Below, one piece after another: positions 28,652 through 44,074 of a stretch of DNA of 64,000 nt. The position numbers and the translations under genes are program-made. Every line of letters starts with the position of its first letter. Position 1 is the stretch's first letter. The notes under the pieces were generated by a model. That model saw only the letters and a list, made by a program, of their open reading frames with translations, did no database searches and was not told the origin of the DNA. Source of the stretch: Flavobacteriales bacterium (GTDB lineage: Bacteria; Bacteroidota; Bacteroidia; Flavobacteriales_G; Salibacteraceae); contig JABMOM010000032.1 of NCBI GenBank assembly GCA_013204105.1, forward strand, positions 62,001 through 126,000, in the 5' to 3' direction.

Positions 28652-29329
28652 ATGATCGAACGCTCCATGTCACTCAACGAGGCCATGCACCTCGAACCGC
28701 TTACAGAGTTAGCGTTGCGGAGATACACGTTGAGAGAGGTGAACGGTGAATTAACCTTTGACGCACTGGGGGAGAACGCGGTTAAGGACGTACAATTTGT
28801 AGTTGATTTGATCAATTTTTATACTGAACCGAAGGCCGCACAGATTGGACAATTCAAGCAATACTCGCTGGGAGTCATCATGGATTACCTCAGGCGGACC
28901 CATGAGTTTTACTCATTGCGAATGTTGCCGCGCATGGAAATGGCAATCCAAAGCATTCAACAAACGTTTAGCGATCATCCGATTGTCGGTATTTTAGATC
29001 ATTTCTACAAGAATTACCAAAATGAGCTATTGGAGCACATCGAGCTGGAGGAGAATCGCTTGTTTCCCTATGCGGAAGAATTATACGACGGAAAGTTTTC
29101 CAGTGACTATTCGATAAAGGAATTCGTGCGTCATCACAACCACAATATTGAAGATCATTTACAGGATGTTTTGAAGCTAATCGAAGAGGATTACCCCGAA
29201 GTATCGAGGTCATTCGCTTATCGATCGTTTAAACTTTTATTGAATCAATTTAAGGCCGATTTGAAGATTCATCACCTGATCGAGGAGTCCATATTTCTCC
29301 CAAAGGTTTTGATGCTGGAATGCAGTTGA
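28652..29329 (+). CDS. Hemerythrin-domain protein
   Basis: 225 aa. Residues from about 70 on form a four-helix hemerythrin-like domain with metal-ligand candidates in DYLRRTHEFY, EHIELEENRLFPYAE, FVRHHNHNIEDHL and HHLIEESIFLPKV. The first 60 residues include a short helical segment. Such proteins sense O2 or NO or repair Fe-S clusters (YtfE/RIC-like). It is followed by a strong terminator and faces the cytochrome gene that ends the respiratory run, so it may be related to that function. Confidence 0.82.
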   Translation: MIERSMSLNEAMHLEPLTELALRRYTLREVNGELTFDALGENAVKDVQFVVDLINFYTEPKAAQIGQFKQYSLGVIMDYLRRTHEFYSLRMLPRMEMAIQSIQQTFSDHPIVGILDHFYKNYQNELLEHIELEENRLFPYAEELYDGKFSSDYSIKEFVRHHNHNIEDHLQDVLKLIEEDYPEVSRSFAYRSFKLLLNQFKADLKIHHLIEESIFLPKVLMLECS

Positions 29330-29360
29330 TGCGATGTAACTGTAAATCTAAGGGCATAAA

Positions 29361-29383
29361 AAAAGGCCCAAGTTGGGCCTTTT
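29361..29383. terminator. Bidirectional intrinsic terminator
   Basis: AAAAGGCCCA and TGGGCCTTTT form a 10-base-pair stem around AGT. A-rich sequence on one side and T-rich on the other give U-tracts in both directions. It separates the hemerythrin gene (+) from the end of the respiratory run (-). Confidence 0.85.
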
Positions 29384-29406: not shown

Positions 29407-29832
29407 CTATTTGAGCGTTCTGAGGTAGTTCACGATGTACCAAACATCTTCTTCTTCTGTAATCTTCTTTTTAAAAGAAGGCATGTCATCCCTTCCTTCT
29501 CGAGTCTTGTAGAAAATAGACCCGTCAGACTGGGATTGAAATTCTTCCATGGTAAAGTCACCGCAATCGGTGTCTAGTTCTCCAGCCTTTGGACCATCTC
29601 CCATTCCTTCTGATCCATGGCACGACTTGCAATGTTTGTTGTAGAGAGATTTCCCGATAGCCATGCCCTCCTTGTCCGAGGAACTGGTTGGATTTTTCAT
29701 GTTTTTTGCTGCGTCGGGAACTTCCCAACCTTCTTCGCCAGCACTGGCCAATTCATTGGCTCCATTTGTAAAGGAAAGGAGCGTCAGGAAAAGTCCTGCG
29801 ACTCCTAAAAATGTAAATGCCTTAAGTTTCAT
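29407..29832 (-). CDS. Small c-type cytochrome
   Basis: 141 aa. A signal-like N-terminus (FLGVAGLFLTLLSF) is followed by the haem motif in YNKHCKSCHGSEGMGDGP and, 50 or so residues later, DDMPSFKKKI with the likely axial Met, and the C-terminal helix VWYIVNYLRTL. This is a typical mono-haem cytochrome c domain. It is the last gene of the electron-transfer run and is a good candidate electron carrier to a terminal oxidase or an outer-membrane partner. Confidence 0.9.
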   Translation of the reverse strand: MKLKAFTFLGVAGLFLTLLSFTNGANELASAGEEGWEVPDAAKNMKNPTSSSDKEGMAIGKSLYNKHCKSCHGSEGMGDGPKAGELDTDCGDFTMEEFQSQSDGSIFYKTREGRDDMPSFKKKITEEEDVWYIVNYLRTLK

Positions 29833-29846
29833 GGTAATGTGGTTTT

Positions 29847-30743
29847 TTATTTCTCTAAAAGTGAGGTTGCTTTTTTACCTAACGAGTTCATTTTTACGAT
29901 TCGAGTACCAATATAGATGATAACTGTCCAAATGCCAATGATCATGCCAATGATAGTTATCATTAGATATATTGGCGCATTGGCACCAGACGCCCATAAA
30001 GCGCGTTCATTTATAACATCTAAGGAAGAAACAGGAATTCCCCAATCGATGATCTTGTGCGCTTCTAGCGTTCCAAAATCGGAATGATCGTTCACCCTGA
30101 TTACGAGTGTTACATTGCCTTCTTCATCCCCGGGTATTCCCTGAGGAAATTCTACATGAAGCCTTCCATCTTCGTCGGTCATCAAGTAATCACCACCGAT
30201 TGGCAAAAGACTGTACATACGCTTTACAAATACCTGTATCGCTTCCTGGGCAATTCCGACACGCTCGCTATCTCCGGGTATGGAAAGTCGAACATCGAAG
30301 GACAGCACGGAATCCGCGTTGAACTGTTCAAATTCGAGCAGTGCTTTATCGATGAATATTTCCTTGGTTAGATCCTCGTAACGAGGGTCATTGATCACAC
30401 GTGCGATGAAATGGAATGAGTCTACGGTATCGCGCGCTAATTCAAATTTGTTGACCAATGGAAAGACACACATTCCTTCGGCATCGGTAGCTAAGCTTCC
30501 CATCATTCCTCCTTTGCTGATCTCATTCATATAGAGGTTGACCAACATTTTGACAGCGGGAAGGCGTTCACGACCATTCCGGACGAATGCCTTTAGCTTT
30601 ACGACGTGACTATCGTTGCCAAGCTGAACGTAGTTTAGACTGACCCGAGGGGCCAATTTTTCCTGATCGTCATCCTGTGTCAACCCAGGAAAGGACAGCG
30701 CAAGGACAAGTGCGCAAAGAGCAATTTTCTTAAGCGTTCTCAT
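29847..30743 (-). CDS. Membrane-anchored periplasmic protein of the NrfD-containing run
   Basis: 298 aa. Signal peptide ending in SFPGLTQ, then about 220 periplasmic residues that look like beta-sandwich repeats (VSLNYVQLGN; VKLKAFVRNG; GSLATDAEGMCVFPL; MTDEDGRLHVEFP), then one membrane helix near residues 257-283 and a short Lys-rich cytoplasmic tail. No redox-cofactor motif is visible, so it is probably an assembly or scaffold part of the complex. I do not recognise a family. Its start overlaps the stop of the NrfD-like gene by 14 bases. Confidence 0.7.
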   Translation of the reverse strand: MRTLKKIALCALVLALSFPGLTQDDDQEKLAPRVSLNYVQLGNDSHVVKLKAFVRNGRERLPAVKMLVNLYMNEISKGGMMGSLATDAEGMCVFPLVNKFELARDTVDSFHFIARVINDPRYEDLTKEIFIDKALLEFEQFNADSVLSFDVRLSIPGDSERVGIAQEAIQVFVKRMYSLLPIGGDYLMTDEDGRLHVEFPQGIPGDEEGNVTLVIRVNDHSDFGTLEAHKIIDWGIPVSSLDVINERALWASGANAPIYLMITIIGMIIGIWTVIIYIGTRIVKMNSLGKKATSLLEK

Positions 30744-32097
30744 TGTATTCTAGGTTTTCATGCGTAACTCCTTTCTGTTCTGCAATTTCCCAAATAGGAA
30801 TGATTGGTAGAATTCGGATAAAGAGGGTAACTACCAAAAGTGCCCCTGCGAGGGATCCTGCAGTGATGGACCATTCTTCCCACGTGGGCATATAATGATG
30901 CCATTCTTCTGGAAAGCCTTGGATTGGCACAAAGGGATGTAGCAGCGTTGGAATGACGATTAGAAATCGCTTGAACCAGGCCCCGACGATAACCATCAGG
31001 GAAATAATGAATACGGGCCAAGGACGTCTACCACCTTTAAAAAAGAGCACAATGATTGGAACGATCATTCCAAAGATCTGGACGGACCAAAAGAGAGGTG
31101 CATAGCTTCCCGTGAACAGCGCATCTAAGTGGGCGGCCTCAGCCAATTTCATCTTGTAAGCGGGCACTAAGTACTCGTTGATGTTGAAATAGAGGTAGAT
31201 CAACGATAAAAGAACCAGGAGTTTGCTCATCAAGTCAAAGTGTTTATCGGTTATAAACTCTTTGAGATTGTATTGTCTTCTCAGTACAAACATGCCTGCA
31301 ATAACCGCCGCAGCCCCTACCATGAACGCTCCGGAAACGAAGTAAGGTCCGAAATTCGTGCTGTCCCAGCCGGATCTAAACGTAGTGGCAAACAACCAGG
31401 ATGTCACCGTGTGGATTCCCAATGCAACGGGTATGATCAAGATGCTTAGGGTGCGAATCGAACTGTTCAAGATCTTGTATTGGCCGATAGGTGCGGCGGC
31501 CCATTTGATGGAGAAAAAGCGGATAATGCGTTGATGCCAACCGCGGAACCGTGATTGGTTCGCTTTCATAATGTTCAAGTCTGGAATCAGAGGCAGGTAG
31601 AGCAGCAGTAAGCTGATCGCTAAGTAGGTTGTAATGACAATCACGTCCCATATAATCGGCGACTGAAGTCGTCCATGGGCGAAGAGATTCAGCATGCGTT
31701 CTGGACGCCCCATGTCTACGATAATGATGAGTGCAGCGAACATAATGGCTGACACTGCAATGATTTCGGAGATTCTCGTCAAGGGAATCGCCCAACTGAC
31801 TTTGAGCAATTTCAAAATTGCACTTATGAGCGAACCGACCAAACTGATCGCCACGAAGAAGACGAAGTTACTCACGTAGATTCCCCAGGATGTGAAATCC
31901 CGCATACCGGTGACGATCAATCCATCATCGAGTTGACGCAGGTAGGCGAAGAGACCTACTGCGCAAATCATTACTAAGACCACGACCCAGGCTTTACCCA
32001 GAGGGCCAAATTCGGTCGGCATAAGGGTGTTTTTCAACTCCTTAGCAATGGAGCGTTGCTCCTCGGTTGTCAATGCGTTAGCTCTTGTCTGTTCCAT
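30730..32097 (-). CDS. NrfD/PsrC-like polytopic quinol-reactive membrane subunit
   Basis: 455 aa with roughly ten membrane segments. It has the NrfD/PsrC/ActC pattern: a first helix pair around residues 34-80, GRPERMLNLFAHGRLQSPIIWDVIVI (conserved Gly-Arg-Pro and Trp-Asp near the quinol site), HTVTSWLFATTF and a late region HHYMPTWEEW. Such subunits oxidise or reduce quinol and pass electrons to a periplasmic 4Fe-4S partner, here the gene just upstream, with which it overlaps by 20 bases. Confidence 0.9.
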   Translation of the reverse strand: MEQTRANALTTEEQRSIAKELKNTLMPTEFGPLGKAWVVVLVMICAVGLFAYLRQLDDGLIVTGMRDFTSWGIYVSNFVFFVAISLVGSLISAILKLLKVSWAIPLTRISEIIAVSAIMFAALIIIVDMGRPERMLNLFAHGRLQSPIIWDVIVITTYLAISLLLLYLPLIPDLNIMKANQSRFRGWHQRIIRFFSIKWAAAPIGQYKILNSSIRTLSILIIPVALGIHTVTSWLFATTFRSGWDSTNFGPYFVSGAFMVGAAAVIAGMFVLRRQYNLKEFITDKHFDLMSKLLVLLSLIYLYFNINEYLVPAYKMKLAEAAHLDALFTGSYAPLFWSVQIFGMIVPIIVLFFKGGRRPWPVFIISLMVIVGAWFKRFLIVIPTLLHPFVPIQGFPEEWHHYMPTWEEWSITAGSLAGALLVVTLFIRILPIIPIWEIAEQKGVTHENLEYNENA

Positions 32098-33013
32098 CGT
32101 TCAAGGTTTCTTCAAAAGGAAATAATCGATCAACAGGAGGGATGTAATAGACCCTTGGTTTCGTGCCTAGCTCCTCCATGAAACGGTAGGCTGCTTTTTC
32201 TCGGATCAGTGTGCTTAACCGAACGGTCTCACCTCCATTGGTCACGGTATCTTCATTCTCATCACCGAAGTAAAAGACACCATTGGGGCAAGCAGATACA
32301 CAATCAGGAAGTTCGTTCTTCTCTGCCATTTGGGGACAGAAATCGCACTTTTCTACCGTTCCTACTTCGTGGGAAGAGCAAGCCAAGTGAGAGGAGATTG
32401 CTTCAAGGTTTGATGAGTCCATTTCGAGTACTTCATCTCCCCAATTAAAGACACGAGACGAGTATGGACATGCGACCATGCAAAAACGACAGCCAATACA
32501 GCGTTCATTGTCGATGGCAACAATCCCGTCGGAAAGTTTGAATGTTGCATCAACCGGACAAACCTTCGTACAAGGTGGGTTATCACAATGGAAGCAAGTG
32601 ATGGGCATCCAATACGGAGCCGTTGTCTCGGCGTCCTGCATTTCGTTTACCCTTACATAGCTGCGATCTTCAGGTAGGTAATGCATTTTAGAACAAGCAC
32701 TCTTGCATTTAAGGGCATTTCTGCACTTCGAAAGGTCGATCACCATTACGAATTTCTTGCCTTTAACGCCTTGCCTTATGTCCCGATTTGCTACTTGAAA
32801 TTGGGGCATTTCTTTGACCACCGCCGAATCTATCTTGACAATTTCTCCTTCTGGAGTAAGCAGCTCTAATGTGTCGGATGTGGTTCCCACAGGAGCGAGT
32901 TCATCGCTTGCAGTTGAGCAAGAAGAAACGAAGCTTGAGGCGGCTGCGAGAGCGACCGTAGTCCGCAGGCTTTCTTGAATAAAGGCCCTCCTGGTTTTTT
33001 TATTTGCTTCCAT
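32078..33013 (-). CDS. Tat-targeted 4Fe-4S electron-transfer protein (NrfC/PsrB-like)
   Basis: 311 aa. The N-terminus is a Tat signal (TRRAFIQ) with a possible lipobox (FVSSC). The redox part carries four cysteine groups: an atypical C-x5-C-x3-C opening (KCRNALKCKSAC), CFHCDNPPCTKVCP, CIGCRFCMVACP and the split CDFCPQMA...CVSACP. This is the four-cluster plan of NrfC/PsrB/DmsB. Residues about 48-85 resemble the whole of the 81-aa protein encoded just upstream. It should sit at the periplasmic face and exchange electrons with the NrfD-like subunit. It overlaps both neighbours. Confidence 0.92.
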   Translation of the reverse strand: MEANKKTRRAFIQESLRTTVALAAASSFVSSCSTASDELAPVGTTSDTLELLTPEGEIVKIDSAVVKEMPQFQVANRDIRQGVKGKKFVMVIDLSKCRNALKCKSACSKMHYLPEDRSYVRVNEMQDAETTAPYWMPITCFHCDNPPCTKVCPVDATFKLSDGIVAIDNERCIGCRFCMVACPYSSRVFNWGDEVLEMDSSNLEAISSHLACSSHEVGTVEKCDFCPQMAEKNELPDCVSACPNGVFYFGDENEDTVTNGGETVRLSTLIREKAAYRFMEELGTKPRVYYIPPVDRLFPFEETLNDGTDKS

Positions 33014-33245
33014 AGTTGTCTGATGCTTTTCCTGATTTCATCCAGGAGTAGAGTCTCTGATTGCTTACTTTGACCTTTTTGGATTTATCCAGGGTAGAAC
33101 GTTTAACGTGTACCAGCTTTCCGTCTGAGGTCAAGAGGGGAACTTCTTCATCTTCCGATGCAGAAGGCATTACCCACCGAAGAAAGGGCAGGGCCAAAAG
33201 GCCTAGGCCGAGTGTTTTAATGAATTTCCTTTTTGTCGTTGCCAT
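33000..33245 (-). CDS. Small export-signal protein resembling the N-terminus of the 4Fe-4S subunit
   Basis: 81 aa. It begins with a Tat-like signal (KRKFIKTLGLGLLALP) and has a short acidic/basic mature part (PLLTSDGKLVHVKRSTLD) that parallels the segment LLTPEGEIVKIDSAVV of the adjacent 4Fe-4S protein. It has no cysteine, so it binds no cluster itself. A role as a scaffold, chaperone or docking subunit is inferred. It overlaps the 4Fe-4S gene by 14 bases. Confidence 0.7.
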   Translation of the reverse strand: MATTKRKFIKTLGLGLLALPFLRWVMPSASEDEEVPLLTSDGKLVHVKRSTLDKSKKVKVSNQRLYSWMKSGKASDNYGSK

Positions 33246-33257
33246 GGCTAGTATAGG

Positions 33258-34103
33258 TTAGAAATTCCAGAGTCTTGTCATGTTGAATCCCAGCAAGAAG
33301 TCGAGATCTGTATAACTGTTATCGTTGTACATATAGTCGTATTGACTATTGATCCTATTGAAGGTGCTGACGAATATTTGGAATGCATGTGCACTCGTAA
33401 CGAGTTCTATTCCTAGACCAATGTTTGGCAAGGATTCATCGGAGGGCTGAGAGGTCAAAGGATGATCATATTCCAGTAGGATGTTCATCTGATCCCGAAC
33501 CTTGACCCGCGCCGTGGATGAAACCCCAATCACGTCATGATTTCTTCCCTCAGCAACGATGTTGAAGTGGGTGAAGCTCGGAGATACCTGCATAGAGAAT
33601 CGACGATGAAACTTTCTGGCGATGATCAGCTGATGGAAATAGGTGAATCGATTTGAAAAGCTGGTGAAAACATCTTTTCTGACGTCGATACTTACATTGC
33701 TGAAGTAAGTCACCCCAACGGGTATATTGCCCGATCGCGTTTGTCTCAGCAAGGCTACTTTGACGTTGGCATCCTGCAATTTGTTGTTCTTCGTCGATCC
33801 AACACCCACTTGAAGGAAATCGGTTAGACTGTAACAAAGCCCAAACCGAATGTTAGAGGGGGCGTAGAGGCCTAATAAATCAAAGCCCTCAGAGTTCATT
33901 TTTCCAAAGCGGTGCTGAATGACATACTCCAGGGTCTTGGCTTGGTTGACTATGATCGTTTGATTGTTGATCAGGTAAGAACTTTCAAATGGATCTCTAA
34001 CGGGTCGCGTATCCTTTTTTTGCTCTTCGGTCTCCTCTTGAGCATACAACGTAATCGTTAGTGTGCACATTAGAAACAACAGGAAATGTTTGGTAATCTT
34101 CAT
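33258..34103 (-). CDS. DUF5777 family beta-barrel protein
   Basis: 281 aa. Signal peptide ending in TLYAQ, then NNQTIIVNQAKTLEYVIQHRFG, GLYAPSNIRFGLCYS and repeated amphipathic strands ending in LLGFNMTRLWNF with a C-terminal Phe, as in outer-membrane barrels. The pattern fits DUF5777. It lies within the electron-transfer run, so the module may include an outer-membrane component. Confidence 0.85.
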   Translation of the reverse strand: MKITKHFLLFLMCTLTITLYAQEETEEQKKDTRPVRDPFESSYLINNQTIIVNQAKTLEYVIQHRFGKMNSEGFDLLGLYAPSNIRFGLCYSLTDFLQVGVGSTKNNKLQDANVKVALLRQTRSGNIPVGVTYFSNVSIDVRKDVFTSFSNRFTYFHQLIIARKFHRRFSMQVSPSFTHFNIVAEGRNHDVIGVSSTARVKVRDQMNILLEYDHPLTSQPSDESLPNIGLGIELVTSAHAFQIFVSTFNRINSQYDYMYNDNSYTDLDFLLGFNMTRLWNF

Positions 34104-34118
34104 GGCTTTCAGTGTTGT

Positions 34119-34493
34119 CTAGTTTTCTTTTGCTCCTTGTTTGATCCACAGTAATACCTGCTCAATTTGTAAATCGCTCAGCGCACCGGATGGCGGCATG
34201 TCTTTTTCGATGCGCAGGTAGAGCGTACTTTCTTCAGCGTTCAGCGTATCGACATAATTGCCTCCGATCAAGCTGAGATAGGCAAAGTCTGCCTCCAAAT
34301 TTGGAGGAACACCGCCCGCCGATACGTGGCAACCAGAACCGAGACACGATGCCTCGAACATGGGTTGAATTATTTCCGAGTAACTGATGGTATCAGTGTC
34401 GTCTAACACTACGGGTTCGAACTCCTGGTATTCACAAGCTTGGAAAAGAATGCTCACGCTTAGTAGGAATATTGCAAAACATAGGTTTCTCAT
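34119..34493 (-). CDS. Cytochrome-type lipoprotein with a CX4CH haem motif
   Basis: 124 aa from ATG 34493 (a GTG at 34502 overlaps the previous stop). Lipoprotein signal with the lipidation Cys at residue 20 (SILFQAC). The haem motif is CLGSGCH at residues 50-56, with four residues between the cysteines instead of two. The late segment IEKDMPPSGALSD carries a Met-Pro-Pro typical of planctomycete-type cytochrome c domains, followed by LLWIKQGAKEN. It is probably an outer-membrane or periplasmic electron carrier. Confidence 0.8.
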   Translation of the reverse strand: MRNLCFAIFLLSVSILFQACEYQEFEPVVLDDTDTISYSEIIQPMFEASCLGSGCHVSAGGVPPNLEADFAYLSLIGGNYVDTLNAEESTLYLRIEKDMPPSGALSDLQIEQVLLWIKQGAKEN

Positions 34494-34498
34494 TGCCT

Positions 34499-35842
34499 TC
34501 ACTCTTTAGGTAGAAACGTAAGGATCTCAAGTGGGGATCCAATATGATTAATGCCATCGTTGTCCATGAGAGCGACCGAGAATGGGTAAGATGATTGGGT
34601 TGCCGGATCGAATTGGATATCATCTTGATGCTCATTCTTCAAGGCTCTTTTAAGCAAAACAGTGTAGGTTTTTTGCTCTGCATTATTCTCAATTTTCACA
34701 AGAGATAGGTTTGACGAGGCGGTCACATCTGCGCAACTTCCAGAGGGATCTTGTAAAATATGTCCCGGAACTCCAGCAAATCCACGAATCCTTGCGACGA
34801 CATCGATTTTTTCTTTTTGTGTTAGGCTATTGTAGTATACCGACCCGCTGTGTTCATTAGAAGGGGCTAACTCCGCTATTGCTTCCCTGGAAAGACGATT
34901 AGAGAAGCCGATATTATTGAAAGGAGGACCATCCCCACCTTGTGCTTTGTCGCCGTGACAACTTGCGCACGCGTGTTGGTAAACCTCCTCGCCGTTGGCG
35001 ACGTCGCCTTCAAAGACCGTTGCATTGTACAGGAAGAATCCAGCGTCTAGGAGCGCCAAGGATCCGTCTGGTTTGGTAGTCGATTGACTTTCTCCGCTCC
35101 ATTCATGGGAAGGGCCACTTCGGGGTCCTTCTACTAAATTTCTTACGTAGGATAATACGCCATCATCTTGCAACAACCCGCTGTCTGGCGTTACGTTGTA
35201 GTCCATCGCATAACCCAAAGGTTCGGTCAATGCTGGCATCCAATTCCAAACGTCCACGGAGCCGGATTGGGTTTTCATTTGGTCATTATGACAGGATGCT
35301 TCACAACCTGTACTCGCAAAAGTTCCCGATGCTCCCGTAGCTCCATTGATGTCGAACATGAGGGACACTCCATCGGTGTTGAGTTGGGATGTCCAGCCCT
35401 CGCTTGAATCCGACTTGAGGGGATCAATTGGGCCATCATAGAATGAAGTTCCGCGGGAAGCGTTCAGATCACTATCTGACCACTCCAACAGAAGGTATAG
35501 GAAGTTATCGTCGTACGCTGCCTTCATTGTAAGAGCGGGATCATTCCTGTCATTAAATCCAGCCATTCCATCGAACGTACCCGTCATATTTAAATTTCCG
35601 TCAGGATAAAGGCTACCACTGCTAATCGCAGCTAAGGTGATGTCAACGTAGTTTGCTGTTTTCCAATACGGGGATTTGATGGAGTTGGGTCCCGATGTAA
35701 CGAACTCTGCTTCAAGGGTCTCGGTGGGCTCGCTTACTTTGGGAACAGGAGGGGCAGGGAAGTATTCGTATTGGCAACCACTCGTCACAGACAAGAAAAT
35801 ACCCATAACGAAGACTATCCTTCCTAACGGTAAAGCATTCAT
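34499..35842 (-). CDS. Ethylbenzene-dehydrogenase-type haem-binding lipoprotein with cytochrome c domain
   Basis: 447 aa from ATG 35842. Lipoprotein signal with Cys 23 (SVTSGC). Residues about 60-270 form an EB_dh/DMSO-reductase-type haem-binding domain with YLLLEWSDSDLN and DGVSLMFDING; inside it is CEASCH at 180-185, a CX3CH variant. Residues about 280-375 are a cytochrome c domain with CASCHG at 292-297. A tail of beta strands follows. It likely receives or delivers electrons for the NrfC/NrfD pair on the outer side. A hairpin precedes its start. Confidence 0.82.
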   Translation of the reverse strand: MNALPLGRIVFVMGIFLSVTSGCQYEYFPAPPVPKVSEPTETLEAEFVTSGPNSIKSPYWKTANYVDITLAAISSGSLYPDGNLNMTGTFDGMAGFNDRNDPALTMKAAYDDNFLYLLLEWSDSDLNASRGTSFYDGPIDPLKSDSSEGWTSQLNTDGVSLMFDINGATGASGTFASTGCEASCHNDQMKTQSGSVDVWNWMPALTEPLGYAMDYNVTPDSGLLQDDGVLSYVRNLVEGPRSGPSHEWSGESQSTTKPDGSLALLDAGFFLYNATVFEGDVANGEEVYQHACASCHGDKAQGGDGPPFNNIGFSNRLSREAIAELAPSNEHSGSVYYNSLTQKEKIDVVARIRGFAGVPGHILQDPSGSCADVTASSNLSLVKIENNAEQKTYTVLLKRALKNEHQDDIQFDPATQSSYPFSVALMDNDGINHIGSPLEILTFLPKE

Positions 35843-35870
35843 GAGGTGATGAGTTTTGAGTGAAAACAAC

Positions 35871-35898
35871 AATGCACCCTGAGAATTCAGGGTGCATT
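35871..35898 (-). terminator. Hairpin inside the electron-transfer run
   Basis: AATGCACCCTGA and TCAGGGTGCATT form a perfect 12-base-pair stem around a 4-base loop. On the minus strand it is followed by TTGTTGTTTTC, T-rich but interrupted. It lies between the carboxypeptidase-regulatory-like lipoprotein gene and the ethylbenzene-dehydrogenase-type gene, so it could terminate or reduce transcription entering the remaining genes, or mark a processing site. Confidence 0.6.
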
Positions 35899-35907
35899 GA
35901 AATGGTT

Positions 35908-36282
35908 TTAGTTAACGGTCAGGTTTACGTCTGCTAGATCGTCTTTTTTATTCTCCACAGTAACAACTACTCCAGGAGAGGAATACTCGAGACCGAAGTC
36001 ATCCATATACGTTGCATTGATATAATATGAACCCGGGTTAATTGCTTCAAAAGAGTAGCTTCCACTTTCGTCCGAAACCGTGGTGTAATTGTACACGTCA
36101 GTTGCTTCAGTAACATCGAATGCGATATTAACGTCAGCACCTTCTACAGCGACACCATCAAGTGTGACTGTGCCTATAATTGCTTTCTTTCCTCCAAATC
36201 CAGGATCTTTGGTACAAGAGACGAAGGCTACAGTGGCTACTATTAGTACTGCCAGTGTTGTTATTTTTGCTATTGTTTTCAT
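35908..36282 (-). CDS. Carboxypeptidase-regulatory-like domain lipoprotein
   Basis: 124 aa. Lipoprotein signal (VAFVSC, Cys 23). The remainder is one beta-sandwich of the CarboxypepD_reg type: GTVTLDGVAVEGADVNI, then SDESGSYSFEAINPGSYYI. These domains are surface or periplasmic binding modules. It follows the YceI lipoprotein gene after about 30 bases and precedes the hairpin at 35871-35898. Its role in electron transfer is not evident. Confidence 0.8.
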   Translation of the reverse strand: MKTIAKITTLAVLIVATVAFVSCTKDPGFGGKKAIIGTVTLDGVAVEGADVNIAFDVTEATDVYNYTTVSDESGSYSFEAINPGSYYINATYMDDFGLEYSSPGVVVTVENKKDDLADVNLTVN

Positions 36283-36313
36283 TGTATTTCAGTTTTGTTA
36301 GTTGGTCAAATGC

Positions 36314-37036
36314 TTAGATTTTGCGGAGATTACAGTCGATTCTAACCACAATTTCATCCTCAATAGATGTGGATGCCACACCAAAATCTGAGATTGCATT
36401 GAAGGAGAATTCGCCTACTAATCCGGCATATGTTCGGTCTCCTGAAGTACCCGTATAAGTATTCTGACCTGTGTAGTTAAATTTCAGCTCTACCTCTTTG
36501 CTCACTCCTCGGAAATCCAAGGTGCCTTTTGCAACATAGCCGCTTCCCGCTCGAGAAATTGAAGTGCTCTTGAAATAGGCGAAGTCTGTGGCAGATTGTG
36601 GCTCAAGGATGGCGTTTCCAGCGGTATCCGCTCCTACGCTGTCAAAGGCTACACCACAGTAACTAGGGCCGCATTTGCCATATGCATCGCGTCCAGGCTC
36701 GCCGGTGTTAAACGTAGAGAGTTGTACCCAAGCTTCGATGGTAGAGTTTGCTGGTGTCTGTTCATCAAAGTAGACGTCGATGTCGAAGCTATTGAATCGA
36801 CCGGTTAACAATGCATTGTCACCGTAATACTTTGTTTCCCACATTACGTTAGAGTGGACCTTATCAAAGGTCCAGGTTCCATCATCACGAGAATCGAGTA
36901 TATCCGATCCAGTAGTAGTTGTGGCTTCAACAGGTTCCCAGGAGTCCTCCTTGCTGCAACCTATCAGGATCATGGCTGAAAGGATTACTACTCCTGCAAC
37001 AAGACCCACCGCGTTTTTTAAATTCTTTGTTTTCAT
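36314..37036 (-). CDS. YceI family lipoprotein
   Basis: 240 aa from ATG 37036. Lipoprotein signal (ILIGCSKED). YceI core from about residue 55: WTFDKVHSNVMWETKY, LTGRFNSFDIDVYFD, ATDFAYFKSTSI, YVAKGTLDFRGVSKEVELKF, GEFSFNAISDFGV. It is expected to bind a hydrophobic molecule such as a quinone or polyprenoid, which fits its position at the head of a quinol-linked module. A perfect CRP/FNR-type palindrome lies about 86 bases upstream of its start. Confidence 0.87.
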   Translation of the reverse strand: MKTKNLKNAVGLVAGVVILSAMILIGCSKEDSWEPVEATTTTGSDILDSRDDGTWTFDKVHSNVMWETKYYGDNALLTGRFNSFDIDVYFDEQTPANSTIEAWVQLSTFNTGEPGRDAYGKCGPSYCGVAFDSVGADTAGNAILEPQSATDFAYFKSTSISRAGSGYVAKGTLDFRGVSKEVELKFNYTGQNTYTGTSGDRTYAGLVGEFSFNAISDFGVASTSIEDEIVVRIDCNLRKI

Positions 37037-37815: not shown

Positions 37816-38682
37816 TTAAGAATACCCCATCGGGCGACTGTCTTTTCGAATGATTTTCTTACTCTCTCGACCACGAAGACTTCCCTTTTCTTTATCGAGC
37901 CAGACGATAGCTCCGGTTGGACAGCGTTGAATTGGATCCATAGTCTGGAGCGCTTTTCCGTAGTCGACATGTGGGAGGTTCTTAATCATCGTGATGAGGT
38001 CATCGGGAGCATCCATGGCGCATTTCCCACATGCGGTGCATCCAACTTGGCAATCTTCCAGCACTTCATCACCGGTCTCAAGGTTTTTACAAGCCACCCA
38101 TAATCGGTTACTAATGGTCTGAAGGGAAAATAGATCCTTGGGGCATACCTCCACGCAATCGCCGCAGGCCGTGCATTTGTCCTCATCTACAACCGGAAGA
38201 CCATGGGCATCCATTGTGATCGCATCAAAGTCACAAACGACTTGGCAATCTCCGAAACCTAAACAACCCCAGAAACAACCCTTGCCTCCCCCAGATACCA
38301 AAGCCGCTCCTCGGCAGCTCTGGAGACCTGCGTATTCGGCTCGATTGACCGCCACATTAGTACCCCCTGCGCATGCCAACCTTGCCACTTGTTTCTCCTC
38401 GGCACCCAAAGCAATCCCCAAATAGTCGGCGATTCCTTCGCGTCCTTCTTCAGAGCTTACCGTGCATTTTCCCGGTAATACCTGTCCCGTGACCAAGGCC
38501 TCTGCAAAAGGCCGACATCCTGGAAATCCACAAGCACCACAGTTTGCGTGGGGAAGCATGTCCTCCACGGTGTCAATGCGTGGATCTTCATAGACGTAAA
38601 GCTTCCTGTTGGCCACAATGAGCATGATGGCCAACAGGAGTGTCAAGCCTCCCAAAGCGAGTAGTGCAGTGAGGATGGTCAT
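37816..38682 (-). CDS. rnfB: Rnf complex subunit B (ferredoxin-type)
   Basis: 288 aa. One N-terminal membrane helix, then the RnfB Fe-S domain with ANCGACGFPGCRPFAEA, then CRGAALVSGGGKGCFWGCLGFGDC, a 4Fe-4S pair CTACGDCVEVCP and CQVGCTACGKC, and a C-terminal basic tail. It takes electrons from reduced ferredoxin (or passes them to it) at the cytoplasmic face of the Rnf complex. It is encoded last, after the ferredoxin reductase gene, whereas rnfB is usually first or adjacent to rnfC. Confidence 0.95.
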   Translation of the reverse strand: MTILTALLALGGLTLLLAIMLIVANRKLYVYEDPRIDTVEDMLPHANCGACGFPGCRPFAEALVTGQVLPGKCTVSSEEGREGIADYLGIALGAEEKQVARLACAGGTNVAVNRAEYAGLQSCRGAALVSGGGKGCFWGCLGFGDCQVVCDFDAITMDAHGLPVVDEDKCTACGDCVEVCPKDLFSLQTISNRLWVACKNLETGDEVLEDCQVGCTACGKCAMDAPDDLITMIKNLPHVDYGKALQTMDPIQRCPTGAIVWLDKEKGSLRGRESKKIIRKDSRPMGYS

Positions 38683-38721
38683 TTTCTAGTTCTCATTCAT
38701 GCGTCATTTTGAGCGGATTTC

Positions 38722-39579
38722 TCAATAGATGATTTCAGCCCATTTATTTCCGGCCGACAGTTCTGCTTTGCGTGTGTTCCAATTTTCTTCCGAACCTAAA
38801 ATGTTGCCGAAGGCTTTGTCGAGTTTGTCCAAAACGCGCTCGTAACCGGCCACATAGACATAGGTGTTGGATTTTTCCAGCATTTCTCGGATTTCCTCAG
38901 CACGCCCTTCAAGTGCTGCATCCAATGCAATTGGGTCCGACCATTCAGGTCTTGGACTCACTGCGTGGAATGCCTTGAACGTTGCTTCATCATAGTAATT
39001 CGTCAAGTCGCCGTCCTTGTCGTTCAAGTACAACAACTCCAACCCACTGCGTGCGCCGTAGAACAATCGGATCTTTCCTTTCCAGTCTCCTACTTCATTG
39101 TAAATGTGCTTCACGAAAGCGCGAAACGGTGCGATACCCGTTCCCATTCCTATCAGTAGAAGGTCGGCCGTTTTGTCTTCAGGAATCTGAAAAGGCAGCT
39201 TGTGCGGTCCAGTAATCGTGATGGCATCGCCCTTGTGTCTATCGCATAAGTAATTCGAAGCCGCACCGTGGTATAGCTCTCCACTGAATTCATCTACGTA
39301 AGAGCACCGCTTTACGAGCATGGTGAGGCGCGTTTTGTCCTTCTTTTTAGATGGAAGATCGGCTACGCTGTACAGGCGATGATGCCACTCGTTGCCGAAT
39401 TCATTGTTTGACTTCACCATCACGCCAAAGCTTTGGTCTACTTGACATGAAAAGGAAGGGTCATCCACTTCCAATTGAATCTCCCGAACCTCCTCAGTGT
39501 CAGGCGGAGTAAGGCGATCTGTTTTCAATACCGTAGCGCGGTATGTTACGTCCGTGTTGTAGTCAGTTAAATTGGCCAT
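38722..39579 (-). CDS. Plant-type ferredoxin-NAD(P)H reductase
   Basis: 285 aa. FAD-binding HRLYSVADL, LYHGAASNYLCD, the NAD(P) loop IGMGTGIAPFRAF, FYGARSGLELLYL and VYVAGYERVLDKLDKAF, with a C-terminal aromatic (Tyr). It would move electrons between ferredoxin and NAD(P)H in the cytoplasm. Its position between the rnf genes and rnfB puts ferredoxin:NADP exchange in the same operon as the Rnf ion pump and the PFOR. It lies 1 base from the small NqrM-like gene. Confidence 0.88.
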   Translation of the reverse strand: MANLTDYNTDVTYRATVLKTDRLTPPDTEEVREIQLEVDDPSFSCQVDQSFGVMVKSNNEFGNEWHHRLYSVADLPSKKKDKTRLTMLVKRCSYVDEFSGELYHGAASNYLCDRHKGDAITITGPHKLPFQIPEDKTADLLLIGMGTGIAPFRAFVKHIYNEVGDWKGKIRLFYGARSGLELLYLNDKDGDLTNYYDEATFKAFHAVSPRPEWSDPIALDAALEGRAEEIREMLEKSNTYVYVAGYERVLDKLDKAFGNILGSEENWNTRKAELSAGNKWAEIIY

Positions 39580-39580
39580 G

Positions 39581-39790
39581 TCAAGTTGTTTTTTCGTTCA
39601 TTCTAGTATGTAAGTCGGTCCTGTTACTACAGGCCGTTGTGCAACCGCAATTACCACATTCGGAACGCCCTGCCAGCGCATCATCATTGATGACGTCCTC
39701 GGCGAAGGACTTTTTCCACCATTCCTGCACGGTAACCCAGATCACCATCAGTCCAATGATGCTCGCGATTCCTATGATGTAGCTTGCCAT
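39581..39790 (-). CDS. NqrM-like small cysteine-rich membrane protein
   Basis: 69 aa from ATG 39790. One N-terminal membrane helix (YIIGIASIIGLMVIWVTV) and a cytoplasmic tail with SECGNCGCTTACS, four cysteines in a cluster-like spacing. NqrM (DUF539) proteins have one helix and a cysteine cluster and deliver iron to the 2Fe-2S centre shared by the NqrD/E or RnfA/E pair. Assignment by this arrangement and the neighbouring rnfA/E is inference. Confidence 0.6.
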   Translation of the reverse strand: MASYIIGIASIIGLMVIWVTVQEWWKKSFAEDVINDDALAGRSECGNCGCTTACSNRTDLHTRMNEKTT

Positions 39791-39802
39791 ATGCATTTTT
39801 CT

Positions 39803-40384
39803 TTATTCAATATTCAGTCCTGAGAAACCCATGAAAGCCAGCGAGAGAATTCCCGCGATGACCAGTGTGAGTACGGTACCCTTTACCACCTTGGGCACCT
39901 CTGCAAAGTCTAGCTTCTCTCTAAGTCCAGCGATCAATATCAGCGCGAGCGTGAATCCAAGTCCAGCGCCGAGGGCATAAACGATGCTTTCTCCGAATCC
40001 ATAGCCTTTGTTGGTTTGGAACAAGGCGAGACCGAGTATGGCGCAATTGGTCGTGATCAGAGGTAAAAAGATGCCCAAGGCCCGAAAGAGGGATGGGCTG
40101 ATTTTCTTGATGAACATCTCCACCAACTGAACGGTGGAGGCGATGACCACTATGTAGCTGATCAACTGCAGAAAAGGAGCGTTGATGGCCACTAGCAGAG
40201 CGTGAATGCCATAGGCACACATGGAACTGATCAGCATGACAAAGGTCACGGCACCCCCCATCTTAGTGGCGGTTTCCATTTTGCCAGACACGCCTAAGAA
40301 TGGACAAATGCCAAGGAAGTAGGCCAAGACAAAATTGTTGACCAGACAGGCATTGATGAAAATGGTTTGGAGCGACTCGTTCAT
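39803..40384 (-). CDS. rnfA: Rnf complex subunit A
   Basis: 193 aa from ATG 40384. Six membrane helices. FINACLVNNFVLAYFLGICPFLGVSGK holds the conserved Cys near the first helix, and TTNCAILGLALFQ the second, which together with RnfE bind a 2Fe-2S centre in the membrane. Its start overlaps the rnfE stop (ATGA, 40381-40384). It is part of the ion-translocating core. Confidence 0.93.
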   Translation of the reverse strand: MNESLQTIFINACLVNNFVLAYFLGICPFLGVSGKMETATKMGGAVTFVMLISSMCAYGIHALLVAINAPFLQLISYIVVIASTVQLVEMFIKKISPSLFRALGIFLPLITTNCAILGLALFQTNKGYGFGESIVYALGAGLGFTLALILIAGLREKLDFAEVPKVVKGTVLTLVIAGILSLAFMGFSGLNIE

Positions 40385-41019
40385 GATCTTTTTCTTTCTT
40401 TCGCCACATTGAATAACAAGAGCCAGAGCGCTAGCGTAAAGAAGCCTCCAGCAGGCAAGATCATTACGATCCACTTCTGAAATCCTCCCGGGAAAAGTGA
40501 GATCTCGAAGAGGGTGCCGTTTCCTACGATTTCTCGTACGGCGCCCAAACAGAAAAGCGCGAAGACGAAACCAGCCCCCATTCCAAGCGCGTCAAGCAAT
40601 GATTTGTAAGGTGTATTCTTTGAAGCAAATGCCTCGGCTCGGCTCAGGATAAGGCAGTTGACCACGATCAATGAGATGAAGGCTCCCAAGCTTTTGTGCA
40701 ATTCAACGCTGATGGCCTGTATGCCATAGTCGGTGATCGTAACAAAGGATGCGATGATGAGGATGTACGATGCGATGCGGACTTCCTTGGGGATGAAGTT
40801 TCTCAGTGAGGCAACCAACAGGTTGGACATGACTAAGACGAAGGTCGTTGCCAATCCCATCGCCAATGCGTTTTCTGCGGTGTTCGATACCGCTAGTACC
40901 GGACACATTCCAAGCACCTGCACAAAGACGGGATTGTCCTTCCAAAGACCTTTGATGAATTCATTGGTCGATTGGGTGTTCGCGCCCGAGCTATGCGTAA
41001 TCATTGACTTGTCATCCAT
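40381..41019 (-). CDS. rnfE: Rnf complex subunit E
   Basis: 212 aa from ATG 41019. Six helices, paralogous to RnfA: FIKGLWKDNPVFVQVLGMCPVLAVSN with the conserved Cys, and VVNCLILSRAEAFASKN in the middle. Pairs with RnfA to carry electrons across the membrane. The start overlaps the rnfG stop. Confidence 0.93.
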   Translation of the reverse strand: MDDKSMITHSSGANTQSTNEFIKGLWKDNPVFVQVLGMCPVLAVSNTAENALAMGLATTFVLVMSNLLVASLRNFIPKEVRIASYILIIASFVTITDYGIQAISVELHKSLGAFISLIVVNCLILSRAEAFASKNTPYKSLLDALGMGAGFVFALFCLGAVREIVGNGTLFEISLFPGGFQKWIVMILPAGGFFTLALWLLLFNVAKERKRS

Positions 41020-41728
41020 CTGTTCCAATATTGTCGTTCACCGATGATGATTTTTTGTCGAAACTGTCCCTCGCACGGTAGATCAGCGGCACCCATTCCT
41101 TGGTGCTGAAATCGATGATGTCCGTGATCGCCCTTGAGGAGATCGTAGCACCAGTAATGGCGTCTACTTCCCATGGGTTTAGCTTGGTGCCATTCTTCAC
41201 GGAGAGTATATTGTTGCTCAATGCTCCCTCTTCTGACAGCGATACGTCGAGCGCATTGAAATTGGCGAGGAAGTTGGAATCCTTCTCGATTCTATCTCCA
41301 AGTCCAGGCGTTTCGTTGCTCTGTAACACGTAGAATCCTACTACTTTTTGGGCATGTGGGTCATAGCCATAGAGAATGCGGATTTCTCCGGCGTATCCTT
41401 GACCGCTTGCTTCAATGGCGACTCCTTTAAAGGATCCTTGTTCATCGTATCCAGCGTAAACGACGCTCGCAGTTTTATCAGGGTCTGCGGCTATTTCAAA
41501 CCGACTTTCTTCGGTCAAGGCGAAGGTTTCCATGGTGCTGGACCCGGGAAGTACTTTGAAGATGGCTGATTTGAGGGCTTCATCCTGCAGGTATGCAATG
41601 CGGTCAAACGTACCCTCATAGGTCATGGCAATGAGCAAGGCGCAGACGGTACCGATACTTACCATGGCAAGAAGCATTTTGCTGCTGCTGGTAGAGCTGT
41701 TGACCGATATGTTCTCCGCTTGACTCAT
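41012..41728 (-). CDS. rnfG: Rnf complex subunit G (covalent FMN)
   Basis: 238 aa. One N-terminal membrane helix, then a periplasmic FMN-binding domain. The covalent-FMN motif is ITGATIS within DAITGATISSRAI; the expected attachment residue is its Thr. GLGDRIEKDSNFLANF is the other family hallmark. Overlaps rnfD by 4 bases upstream and rnfE by 8 bases downstream. Confidence 0.92.
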   Translation of the reverse strand: MSQAENISVNSSTSSSKMLLAMVSIGTVCALLIAMTYEGTFDRIAYLQDEALKSAIFKVLPGSSTMETFALTEESRFEIAADPDKTASVVYAGYDEQGSFKGVAIEASGQGYAGEIRILYGYDPHAQKVVGFYVLQSNETPGLGDRIEKDSNFLANFNALDVSLSEEGALSNNILSVKNGTKLNPWEVDAITGATISSRAITDIIDFSTKEWVPLIYRARDSFDKKSSSVNDNIGTDG

Positions 41729-42741
41729 GTCCCTCTAGATTTGGCTGTTCCGTAAACCCGCGGCCGAATAAGATTGTCGATGTGTGGAGAGACTGCATTG
41801 GCCAATAAGATGGCGTACATCACTCCTTCAGGTAATCCACCCCACAGTCGAATGACAACTACCAGCACTCCGATGAGTACGCCGTACACCACTACTCCCA
41901 TAGGGGTGAGTGGAGATGCCACCATATCCGTCGCCATGAAAATTGCGCCGAGCATGAGACCGCCGGAGAAGAGCATGAATAAAGGAGAAGGATAAATAGT
42001 GCTATCCACTAAGTGGAGAACACCACTGAATACATAGACCGTCAGCAGTATCGCGACGGGGATGCGCCAGTTCATCATTTTCCTCACTACCAAGTAAAGG
42101 CCACCCAGGAGAATGAATATGGCACTTGTCTCACCAGTGGATCCACTTACCAATCCGAATGCTAGGTCATACGTCGGCGTGATCACGTGGTCAAATTTGA
42201 ATGCGGACAAGGGGGTCGCGCCTGAAATAGCATCTACGGTTGGTTCCATGAATGGGAGTGCCAAAACGGACGATGATACATGTTGGAAGCGGTCGATGGC
42301 AAAGGAAGGTAGCCAGGTGGTGATGGCCACAGGAAATGCTGCTTGCAGTACGGCTCTGCCCACAAGGGCAGGGTTAAATACATTATATCCCAGACCGCCG
42401 AACATGAATTTTCCCAGTCCGATGGCGATCACTCCTCCGCAAAAGGTCATCCACAGCGGAAAGATGGGTGGTAGGGTCAGGCCAAGTAACAATCCTGTGA
42501 TCACCGCCGACCAATCGGAGACGGTGCTTTCCTTTCTTGAGAGCCTGCACAAGACGTGCTCCGTTAAGACGCAGGAGACTACCGCCGTTGTCATCACGAA
42601 CAGGGCGTTGAGTCCAAAAGAGTAGACAGCGAAGGCCGCCACAGGAAGCATTGCCCATACCACATTGCGCATGATCGCATCGGTACTCGTTCCATCTGTG
42701 ATGTGCGGAGATGTGCTGATATGGAGGGTGCGATTAAGCAT
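41725..42741 (-). CDS. rnfD: Rnf complex subunit D (covalent FMN)
   Basis: 338 aa, about nine membrane helices. The covalent flavin motif is SGATPLSAFK within AISGATPL. MWTFCGG and LGKFMFGGLGYNVFNPALVGRA-type features mark the RnfD/NqrB family. Central ion-pumping subunit. Overlaps rnfC by 8 bases. Confidence 0.93.
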   Translation of the reverse strand: MLNRTLHISTSPHITDGTSTDAIMRNVVWAMLPVAAFAVYSFGLNALFVMTTAVVSCVLTEHVLCRLSRKESTVSDWSAVITGLLLGLTLPPIFPLWMTFCGGVIAIGLGKFMFGGLGYNVFNPALVGRAVLQAAFPVAITTWLPSFAIDRFQHVSSSVLALPFMEPTVDAISGATPLSAFKFDHVITPTYDLAFGLVSGSTGETSAIFILLGGLYLVVRKMMNWRIPVAILLTVYVFSGVLHLVDSTIYPSPLFMLFSGGLMLGAIFMATDMVASPLTPMGVVVYGVLIGVLVVVIRLWGGLPEGVMYAILLANAVSPHIDNLIRPRVYGTAKSRGT

Positions 42742-44074
42742 TCGTTACCTCCTTCGTTTTTCGTTTTCTGACGATGGACTTTGACAGCCTGAAGTACTGC
42801 ACCAAAGGGATGTGCGAAGGGCATACATAGGTGCATGAGCCACATTCGAAACAGTCCATGAGGTTGTACGATTCAGCCATCTTATCGTAGGCTTCGAACT
42901 TCGCGAGGATGCCTAGCTTGGATGGGTTCAAGAAAATAGGACAAGCGTCTACGCAAGCCCCGCATTTGATGCACGGAAAGATCTTCTCTGATTTTGTCAC
43001 GTGCTCTTCGCCGAACACAACGATACCCGAGGTGCCTTTGACAATCGAAATGTCCAGGTTAGAGACAGCTACCCCCATCATGGGCCCGCCCATGTACACT
43101 TCGCTGATGTTGTCCGTTACGCCCACTTCCTCCAATACAAACCGCAAGGGCGTTCCGATCGGGATCAAATAATTGCCCTTCTTTTTAACGGCAGGGCCAG
43201 TAATGGTGACCACCCTTTCCTGAATGCCTCTTCCGTGGGGGAGTAAGCGCCCGATCTCTGCAGTGGTAGCTACGTTGACCACAACGGCTCCTACATCGAT
43301 TGGCAATCCTCCCGATGGCACCTCATGCCCAAGCAGCGAGGTGATCAACATCTTTTCAGAGCCCTGCGGGTACTTCACAGGGACCACCTTGATCTCTACG
43401 GGAAGTCCGCGGGGGATGTGCCATGCCAAATGTTTCGCCGCGTCTTGTTTGTTCGCCTCGATGCCGATGATGACGCGCTTCGCACTAGTGACCTTAATTA
43501 AGTAGCGAATGCCCATGAAGATGTCGTCCGCCTGTTCCAACATGACGCGATGATCGGTTGTCAAGAAAGGTTCGCATTCGATGCCGTTGATCAGGAGTGT
43601 GTCGCAATGCTTGCCGTCTGGCACCTTGAGCTTTACGTGGGTAGGGAACGCAGCACCACCAAGACCTACGATTCCCGCATCTTGTATTGCTTGAAGGATC
43701 TGTTCAGGGTTGGCGCTCTCCACATCTACTGGCGTTCCTTCCATGACCTCCTGGGTAGAAGATGGGAAGGGCTCGATGTAAATGCCTTGCACCATCTTTC
43801 CGGAAATCGTATGAACGTTTCCCAAGGAGCGAATGGTGCCTGAAACGGGTGCATGAATCGGAACAGAGACATATCCTCCGGCCTTCGCCAGTACCTGCCC
43901 TCTCGAAACCTCCTGTCCTTGCCTAACCAAGATTTCGGCCGGTGCTCCAATGTGCATCTCAACGGGCAAGATGAACAATGGTGCAAAGGGGAACTGCCGG
44001 ATGGGAGACTTATTGGTCTCATCCTTGTGTTCCGGAGGGTGAACACCGTGCTTGAATGTATTGTTGGTCAACAC
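42734..44074 (-). CDS. rnfC: Rnf complex subunit C (NADH-binding)
   Basis: 446 aa from a GTG start. Cytoplasmic. Residues 1-110 are a barrel-sandwich (biotinyl-lipoyl-like) domain, residues 130-340 the NADH/FMN domain with GIVGLGGAAFPTHVKL and GGPMMGVAV, and the C-terminus has two 4Fe-4S motifs, CIKCGACVDACP and CFECGSCTYVCP. It oxidises or reduces NAD(H). It follows nifJ after 18 bases. Confidence 0.94.
   Translation of the reverse strand: MLTNNTFKHGVHPPEHKDETNKSPIRQFPFAPLFILPVEMHIGAPAEILVRQGQEVSRGQVLAKAGGYVSVPIHAPVSGTIRSLGNVHTISGKMVQGIYIEPFPSSTQEVMEGTPVDVESANPEQILQAIQDAGIVGLGGAAFPTHVKLKVPDGKHCDTLLINGIECEPFLTTDHRVMLEQADDIFMGIRYLIKVTSAKRVIIGIEANKQDAAKHLAWHIPRGLPVEIKVVPVKYPQGSEKMLITSLLGHEVPSGGLPIDVGAVVVNVATTAEIGRLLPHGRGIQERVVTITGPAVKKKGNYLIPIGTPLRFVLEEVGVTDNISEVYMGGPMMGVAVSNLDISIVKGTSGIVVFGEEHVTKSEKIFPCIKCGACVDACPIFLNPSKLGILAKFEAYDKMAESYNLMDCFECGSCTYVCPSHIPLVQYFRLSKSIVRKRKTKEVTNA

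Follow-up and report, generated by a model that had tools for sequence, protein, structure and literature searches.

To which acceptor does a quinol-linked electron-transfer module pass its electrons when no catalytic subunit is encoded with it? The question is raised by ten genes on the minus strand (29407–37036, or to 37075 if the GTG start of the YceI gene is used) of a 64,000-nucleotide stretch of a Flavobacteriales bacterium genome (contig JABMOM010000032.1), which as a whole we call the window. A preliminary description of this DNA listed ten genes, several of them overlapping, and all ten open reading frames are indeed present, with four pairs overlapping by 4–20 bases each. Most of its domain labels were recovered by Pfam, namely Cytochrom_C, NrfD (1.4e-29), the iron–sulphur domain Fer4_11, DUF5777 (1e-70), EB_dh with a cytochrome domain and YceI, while the CarboxypepD_reg label fell just under the cut-off; the 298-, 81- and 127-residue proteins gave no Pfam match. 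As had been stated, the cluster contains no molybdenum or multihaem catalytic gene. We propose, with a probability of roughly 55%, that it may encode a minimal ActC/DsrP-type quinol:cytochrome c oxidoreductase feeding periplasmic N-oxide reductases encoded elsewhere in the genome, chiefly the nitrous oxide (N2O) reductase NosZ; the first part of this proposal comes from sequence comparison, and the part concerning NosZ from co-occurrence across genomes.

Conservation of the gene set in Bacteroidia

Relatives of the 298-residue anchored protein (P298; 29847–30743, minus strand) are distributed patchily: of 295 Bacteroidia genomes 26 have one, and the other sampled members of the source organism's genus or family have none; a phylum-level sample gave two module carriers outside Bacteroidia. 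A scan of genome contigs with NrfD produced 584 relatives, and the best 80 loci, which were retained, come from Chitinophagaceae, Saprospiraceae, Cyclobacteriaceae, Sphingobacteriaceae, Flavobacteriales and others. Across 99 non-redundant loci the core consists of NrfD (99), NrfC (96), P298 (94) and a monohaem cytochrome (84), commonly joined by DUF5777 (72), the lipoprotein C4 (66), the 81-residue protein (48), YceI (34) and EB_dh-like proteins falling into two clusters (32 and 9 loci). The CarboxypepD_reg-like gene is present at 5 loci, adjoining YceI, and MoaA, HemN and UspA are neighbours at three or four loci each. The usual order is (YceI)(EB_dh-like)(C4)(DUF5777)(cytochrome c)(81 aa) NrfC-NrfD-P298 (cytochrome c).

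With the neighbouring genes shared by 99 non-redundant loci, chance can be dismissed as an explanation of the set. None of the gene families that recur at these loci is a catalytic partner, and most of the relatives have no molybdenum or multihaem catalytic gene in the cluster. The preliminary description had suggested this comparison, and had reckoned with homologous loci that usually carry a catalytic gene; what we find is an order conserved with no such gene adjacent, which argues for a distinct conserved module. The idea that the source organism has simply lost a neighbouring catalytic gene was discarded, as ~100 relatives are also without one.

Some loci depart from this picture. Type-2 paralogues (L041, L047, L050, L059 and L062) have a canonical first cysteine motif in NrfC and an NrfD of ~480–490 residues; an EB_dh-like gene is part of the set, as in most cases are C4 and DUF5777. 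At another locus (L038, G007:C25) a second NrfC/NrfD pair, together with a tetrahaem and a 14-haem protein, lies ~10 kb from a module of the type seen in the window, and a divergent module (L055, G172:C51), in one of the two genomes with NrfA, includes genes for a 7-haem and a b-type cytochrome.

The quinone site and the iron–sulphur subunit

The likeness to PsrC and PsrB that was first suggested for NrfD and NrfC did not survive comparison with solved structures. The membrane subunit NrfD (455 aa; 30730–32097, minus strand) matches the named families DsrP, QrcD and HybB, its best NCBIfam match being DsrP at 137.4 bits (cut-off 350). When searched against the PDB as a single sequence it finds ActC only (6e-48), and a profile of 18 relatives with a mean column identity of 67% (A1) finds ActC (7e-67) and ActF as the only matches, with PsrC absent. 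The PsrC/PsrB assignment of the pair was therefore rejected, and NrfD is ActC/DsrP-like. We mapped the quinone residues named in PMC8076601 through the ActC alignment: H139, S164, D169 and R395 of Rhodothermus marinus ActC correspond to D128, S146, D151 and R377 of NrfD, all invariant in A1, and D253 corresponds to L235. DsrP, QrcD and TtrC likewise have an aspartate at the H139 position. Because D128, S146, D151 and R377 are invariant, the site looks competent for quinol chemistry, and we propose it as the putative quinol-oxidising site.

The same kinship raises the question of direction, as electrons might instead run from periplasmic or outer-membrane cytochromes into the menaquinone pool, in the manner of QrcABCD. 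QrcC and QrcD are relatives of the pair, D128 occupies the QrcD/DsrP aspartate position, and QrcCD is described as a menaquinone-reducing redox dimer (PMC13059093). However, module loci have no recurrent neighbour that could act as an electron source, such as a periplasmic hydrogenase or formate dehydrogenase, and the N-oxide reductases associated with the module (see below) consume electrons, which makes reverse flow quite improbable in our estimate.

NrfC (311 aa; 32078–33013, minus strand) begins with a Tat-like twin-arginine leader, resembles NrfC, DsrO and the C-terminus of ActB, and has DsrO as its best NCBIfam match (170.5 bits, cut-off 200). It does have the four cluster motifs noted earlier, but they do not make up a canonical set of four [4Fe-4S] sites, as motif I (C97-x2-A-x2-C103-x3-C107) lacks its second cysteine. 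This cysteine is missing in 90 of 90 relatives of the window type, where leucine (47), alanine (33), valine (8) or glutamate (2) takes its place, and is kept in six type-2 paralogues. By analogy with 7Fe ferredoxins, its loss makes a [3Fe-4S] cluster likely at motif I. The family of the adjacent 81-residue protein (33000–33245, minus strand) is akin to the leader segment at the N-terminus of NrfC (hhalign probability 98.7), with the motif LLTxDGxLVEVD in common.

The AlphaFold2 model of P298 (mean predicted local distance difference test score, pLDDT, 84) has a signal peptide, two immunoglobulin/macroglobulin-like beta-sandwich domains and a C-terminal membrane helix, and its structure matches are generic beta-sandwiches only (Z up to 9.7). 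It gave no NCBIfam match. As the folds are generic and a cofactor motif is absent, a role as a redox subunit was rejected, and we propose that P298 is a scaffold or docking subunit. The soluble cytochrome c (141 aa; 29407–29832, minus strand; Cytochrome_CBB3, 2e-11) has a Sec signal and a single CXXCH (one CXXCH in 91 of 91 relatives, a lipobox in 2 of 93), and is proposed to be a periplasmic shuttle.

Among known systems, alternative complex III (ACIII; ActABCDEF) is similar in that NrfD is an ActC-type quinone-binding subunit, NrfC aligns with the C-terminus of ActB, and the monohaem cytochrome c is comparable to ActE. The module is nevertheless not a standard ACIII, as the preliminary description had recognised. 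A multihaem ActA-type gene is neither present in the module nor recurrent beside the 99 relatives, NrfC is free-standing whereas ActB has a fused molybdopterin-like domain, and there is one NrfD gene per module copy, with no ActF. In addition, the altered iron–sulphur motif is the first, whereas the motif lacking a cysteine in R. marinus ActB is the third (CIGTRYC), and the module adds P298 and an outer-membrane set. DsrMKJOP shares the best NCBIfam matches (DsrO and DsrP) and the aspartate at the quinone-proton position, but NrfC and NrfD both score under the curated cut-offs, and DsrM, DsrK and the trihaem DsrJ are absent from the cluster and do not recur in its relatives. The complex iron–sulphur molybdoenzymes of the Psr/Phs/Ttr kind differ by their molybdopterin catalytic subunit, and NrfABCD by its pentahaem NrfA.

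Association with nitrous oxide reductase

The genome of the source organism (96% complete) gave no match to the molybdopterin oxidoreductase family PF00384, which removes an unlinked molybdenum reductase as the partner, and NirK, NirS, cNorB and NrfA were not found in it at the thresholds used. A scan for dihaem-spaced CXXCH motifs returned two matches on a repeated stretch, taken as non-cytochrome, and missed a hexahaem ActA-like gene of the same genome, so multihaem proteins are not excludable by it. What the genome does encode is a NosZ of clade II and the Sec type (TIGR04246, 920 bits). Its cluster has the order NosCyt-NosZ-193aa-NosL-D-F-Y and also includes a Crp/Fnr regulator and a gene resembling ribonucleotide reductase. 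Two di-haem lipoproteins of the cytochrome c peroxidase/MauG type flank this cluster (L143, 3114–4145 and 16062–17168, minus strand).

NosZ is present in 94 of the 295 Bacteroidia genomes, and in 20 of the 26 that carry the module (p = 1e-6). When we consider the genomes with an NrfD of the window type, a clade with a support of 100/99, NosZ is found in 19 of 21, compared to 74 of 269 module-free genomes (p = 1e-8); one NosZ-positive genome (G124), with its NrfD beyond the contig, was left untyped. Counted by genus, NosZ occurs in 14 of 15 window-type genera against a background of 61 of 155 (p = 2e-5), phylogeny beyond genus being ignored in these statistics. In a separately found set of 50 module genomes, including many assembled from metagenomes, 38 have NosZ. 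Four culturable species with the module (Limnovirga soli, Pinibacter aurantiacus, Niastella vici and Solitalea agri) all have NosZ. The preliminary description had offered two destinations for the electrons, and of these the unlinked reductase fits, with NosZ as the candidate.

Other N-oxide reductases were compared between the 26 module genomes and 40 controls. NirK (3 against 6) and NirS (0 against 2) show no association and were dropped as partners, and NrfA occurs among these 66 genomes only in G141 and G172, both module genomes lacking NosZ. A cNorB-like oxidase is found in 17 module genomes (among them G100, G109 and G279, which lack NosZ) and 9 controls, using a query that was picked for its position beside the module at L049 and that scores in Pfam and NCBIfam only as COX1-superfamily; we read it as a putative nitric oxide (NO) reductase from its sequence and the adjacent monohaem cytochrome. 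NosZ, cNorB or NrfA is present in 25 of the 26 module genomes, the exception (G209) being 68% complete, compared to 19 of 40 controls that have any of the N-oxide reductases tested, including NirK and NirS (p = 3e-5).

The distribution of the cNorB-like oxidase would also fit electron supply for detoxification, by NO reductase or cytochrome c peroxidase, in place of energy-conserving respiration. Convergent with the module lies a gene on the plus strand (28652–29329) for a hemerythrin-like protein that matches RIC/YtfE weakly (52 bits against a cut-off of 205), which suggests a context of NO or iron–sulphur stress, and the di-haem proteins beside the nos cluster are of the peroxidase type. However, cNorB was not found in the genome in question and its association is weaker than that of NosZ, and we would give detoxification very little credence.

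Physical linkage is found in few places. In Chitinophagales bacterium GL140_5 (L132) the genes YceI-C4-DUF5777-cytochrome c-81aa-NrfC-NrfD-P298 are followed by a HemN-like gene, a divergent membrane protein, NosCyt and NosZ, which starts ~4.5 kb past P298. Module and NosZ lie 38 kb apart on one contig in G050, the distance from the module to a cNorB-like gene is 3 kb in G158 and 14 kb in G037, and elsewhere the module is unlinked to either. Crp/Fnr-family regulators adjoin the module at 18 loci (within L035–L062 and L063–L142), have an N-terminal cysteine-rich motif (CxxCxxxxCF-like) and are possible Fe-S or NO sensors; the regulator adjoining the organism's own nos cluster is related.

Several points weigh against NosZ as the chief acceptor. 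Module presence was called by similarity to P298 and divergent copies may be missed; one genome (G100, 100% complete) lacks NosZ in spite of its window-type modules; the module is absent from many genomes with NosZ and is thus not obligatory; NosZ adjoins it in one locus of ~100; and the co-occurrence may come from a common facultatively anaerobic niche. In addition, the ACIII of the organism itself could supply the same cytochromes. This ACIII-like cluster (L033, G000:C30:126001-146000, from ~141500) encodes a 6-haem protein, a 1060-residue ActB-like protein and an ActC-like NrfD (the ActB- and ActC-like genes from C30:143048 onward) and lies at a distance of ~50 kb from the module; ActC-type quinol modules are thus present twice in this genome. 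An ACIII-related donor for NosZ is made credible by Methylacidiphilum, where a nos cluster embedded in an ACIII cluster has been reported (PMC11102522).

The module could also be a second, conditionally expressed complex III, which would deliver electrons from quinol to the general cytochrome c pool and mainly to oxygen reductases when oxygen is low, with N-oxide reductases incidental. The ActC-like NrfD and monohaem cytochrome c resemble the ActC/ActE part of ACIII, a paralogous route is plausible in a genome with its own ACIII, Crp/Fnr regulators are close by, and NosZ is absent from the two genomes with a type-2 module only, both of which carry a cNorB-like oxidase. On the other hand, the strong co-occurrence with NosZ is not predicted by this explanation and the role is already filled by ACIII, and we consider it unlikely, though the best placed of the rivals.

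If the module does feed NosZ, menaquinol would give up its electrons at the site on the periplasmic side of NrfD, and these would move outward through the NrfC chain, made up of three [4Fe-4S] clusters and probably one [3Fe-4S], with P298 as a non-redox scaffold. The soluble monohaem cytochrome would carry the electrons off and, together with the haem lipoproteins (C4 and the EB_dh-type cytochrome) held by the DUF5777 barrel, would pass them to a terminal reductase whose gene lies elsewhere. The likeliest candidate in the source organism is clade II NosZ, a lipoprotein, reached through its own lipoprotein cytochrome, so that the module would drive N2O respiration. We infer the direction of flow, the formation of a complex and NosZ as acceptor; NosZ itself is probably anchored at the outer membrane as a lipoprotein, with lipoboxes in 10 of 11 NosZ proteins and 11 of 13 of their cytochromes.

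The electron routes to clade II NosZ described so far are cytochrome bc1 and NosGH (PMC11539149). Those of Wolinella (NosG/NosH with NosC1/C2, and bc1) have the same proposed job, from menaquinol via periplasmic cytochrome c to NosZ (PMC11539149), whereas the module has an ActC/DsrP-type NrfD with NrfC and is encoded away from nos. More tentatively, and below even odds, these modules may represent a hitherto undescribed, horizontally spread and possibly energy-conserving family of quinol:cytochrome c oxidoreductases, with a [3Fe-4S]-entry NrfC, an ActC/DsrP-like NrfD and P298, that would form a third route to clade II NosZ and reach the outer membrane.

Outer-membrane components, transcription and flanking genes

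The outer-membrane set is centred on DUF5777 (281 aa; 33258–34103, minus strand), for which AlphaFold2 predicts a barrel of 12 long strands (mean pLDDT 86.5) with porin-like fold matches. Next to it are encoded C4 (127 aa; 34119–34502, minus strand), with a haem-attachment-like CX4CH that is kept in 67 of 70 relatives (one has the canonical CXXCH) and a lipobox in 68 of 70, and an EB_dh-type lipoprotein (457 aa; 34499–35872, minus strand; EB_dh 1.9e-16, Cytochrome_CBB3 1.4e-7) with an extra CX3CH motif. A small CarboxypepD_reg-like lipoprotein (124 aa; 35908–36282, minus strand) and the YceI lipoprotein (36314–37036, minus strand, from the ATG at 37036; 1.8e-18) follow. Lipoboxes are found in the C4, EB_dh and CarboxypepD_reg-like proteins and in most YceI proteins.

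Such a set, a barrel with haem lipoproteins usually accompanying a quinol-oxidising part, recalls porin–cytochrome conduits of the MtrCAB type, and electrons might be exported through DUF5777, C4, the EB_dh cytochrome and YceI to extracellular acceptors, the other destination first envisaged. Several of the lipoproteins have charged residues at +2 to +4 (CSKED in YceI, for example), which could favour surface export in Bacteroidota. MtrCAB-type barrels, however, have 26 strands; going by the model, a cytochrome would not fit inside the narrower 12-strand DUF5777 barrel in the way it does in MtrAB, and C4 and the shuttle cytochrome are monohaem where MtrCAB is decahaem. The scan for closely spaced haem motifs found none in the genome, a weak point as it also missed the ActA-like hexahaem gene. 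Export thus seems to us a poor prospect.

A 13-bp hairpin followed by TTGTTTT (35870–35899, minus strand; −23.6 kcal/mol, z −7.1), a candidate terminator or attenuator, separates the YceI and CarboxypepD_reg-like pair from the other eight genes, and a likely intrinsic terminator (GGCCCAACTTGGGCC and a T run; 29358–29382, minus strand; −14.3 kcal/mol, z −2.7) lies 3′ of the cytochrome gene. From these two hairpins we would expect an eight-gene and a two-gene transcript, or partial read-through between them. The TTG at 35872 falls within the strong hairpin, which makes the ATG at 35842 the likelier start of the EB_dh gene. Directly upstream of the module is an Rnf operon (37816–44074, minus strand) with the order RnfC-D-G-E-A, a 71-residue cysteine-rich membrane protein, a 285-residue flavoprotein like ferredoxin:NAD(P)H reductase, and then RnfB. 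As the usual order in Bacteroidetes is rnfBCDGEA (PMC3534657), the displaced RnfB and the extra reductase-like gene are unusual. Rnf does not recur beside the relatives, and a functional tie to the module was dropped.

The general idea of a quinol module of NrfC and NrfD donating to separate cytochromes, as in QrcCD, is already in print, proposed for the Mros1571–1572 pair of Melioribacter roseus, which has no molybdenum subunit (PMC3534657). There the context is Fe(III) and multihaem cytochromes, whereas here it is monohaem carriers, P298, DUF5777, EB_dh, YceI and a co-occurring NosZ. The papers searched (for DUF5777, and for NrfD with YceI or nosZ), a literature with most subscription journals outside it, hold no description of the module, and within that literature the family, its conserved partners, the loss of the cysteine and the association with NosZ appear undescribed. 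The module also adds to the NrfD superfamily a branch that is unlisted in its main survey (PMC8076601). Bacteroidota make up 70.6% of the genomes with clade II nosZ in activated sludge, the largest group (PMC11409646), and many Bacteroidota carriers of clade II nosZ reduce N2O without producing it. The module may be the answer to how removal of this greenhouse gas is powered in many bacteria of soil and sludge, and as a predictive marker of N2O respiration whose proposed quinol-oxidising pair is named, it would open the electron supply of NosZ to direct tests.

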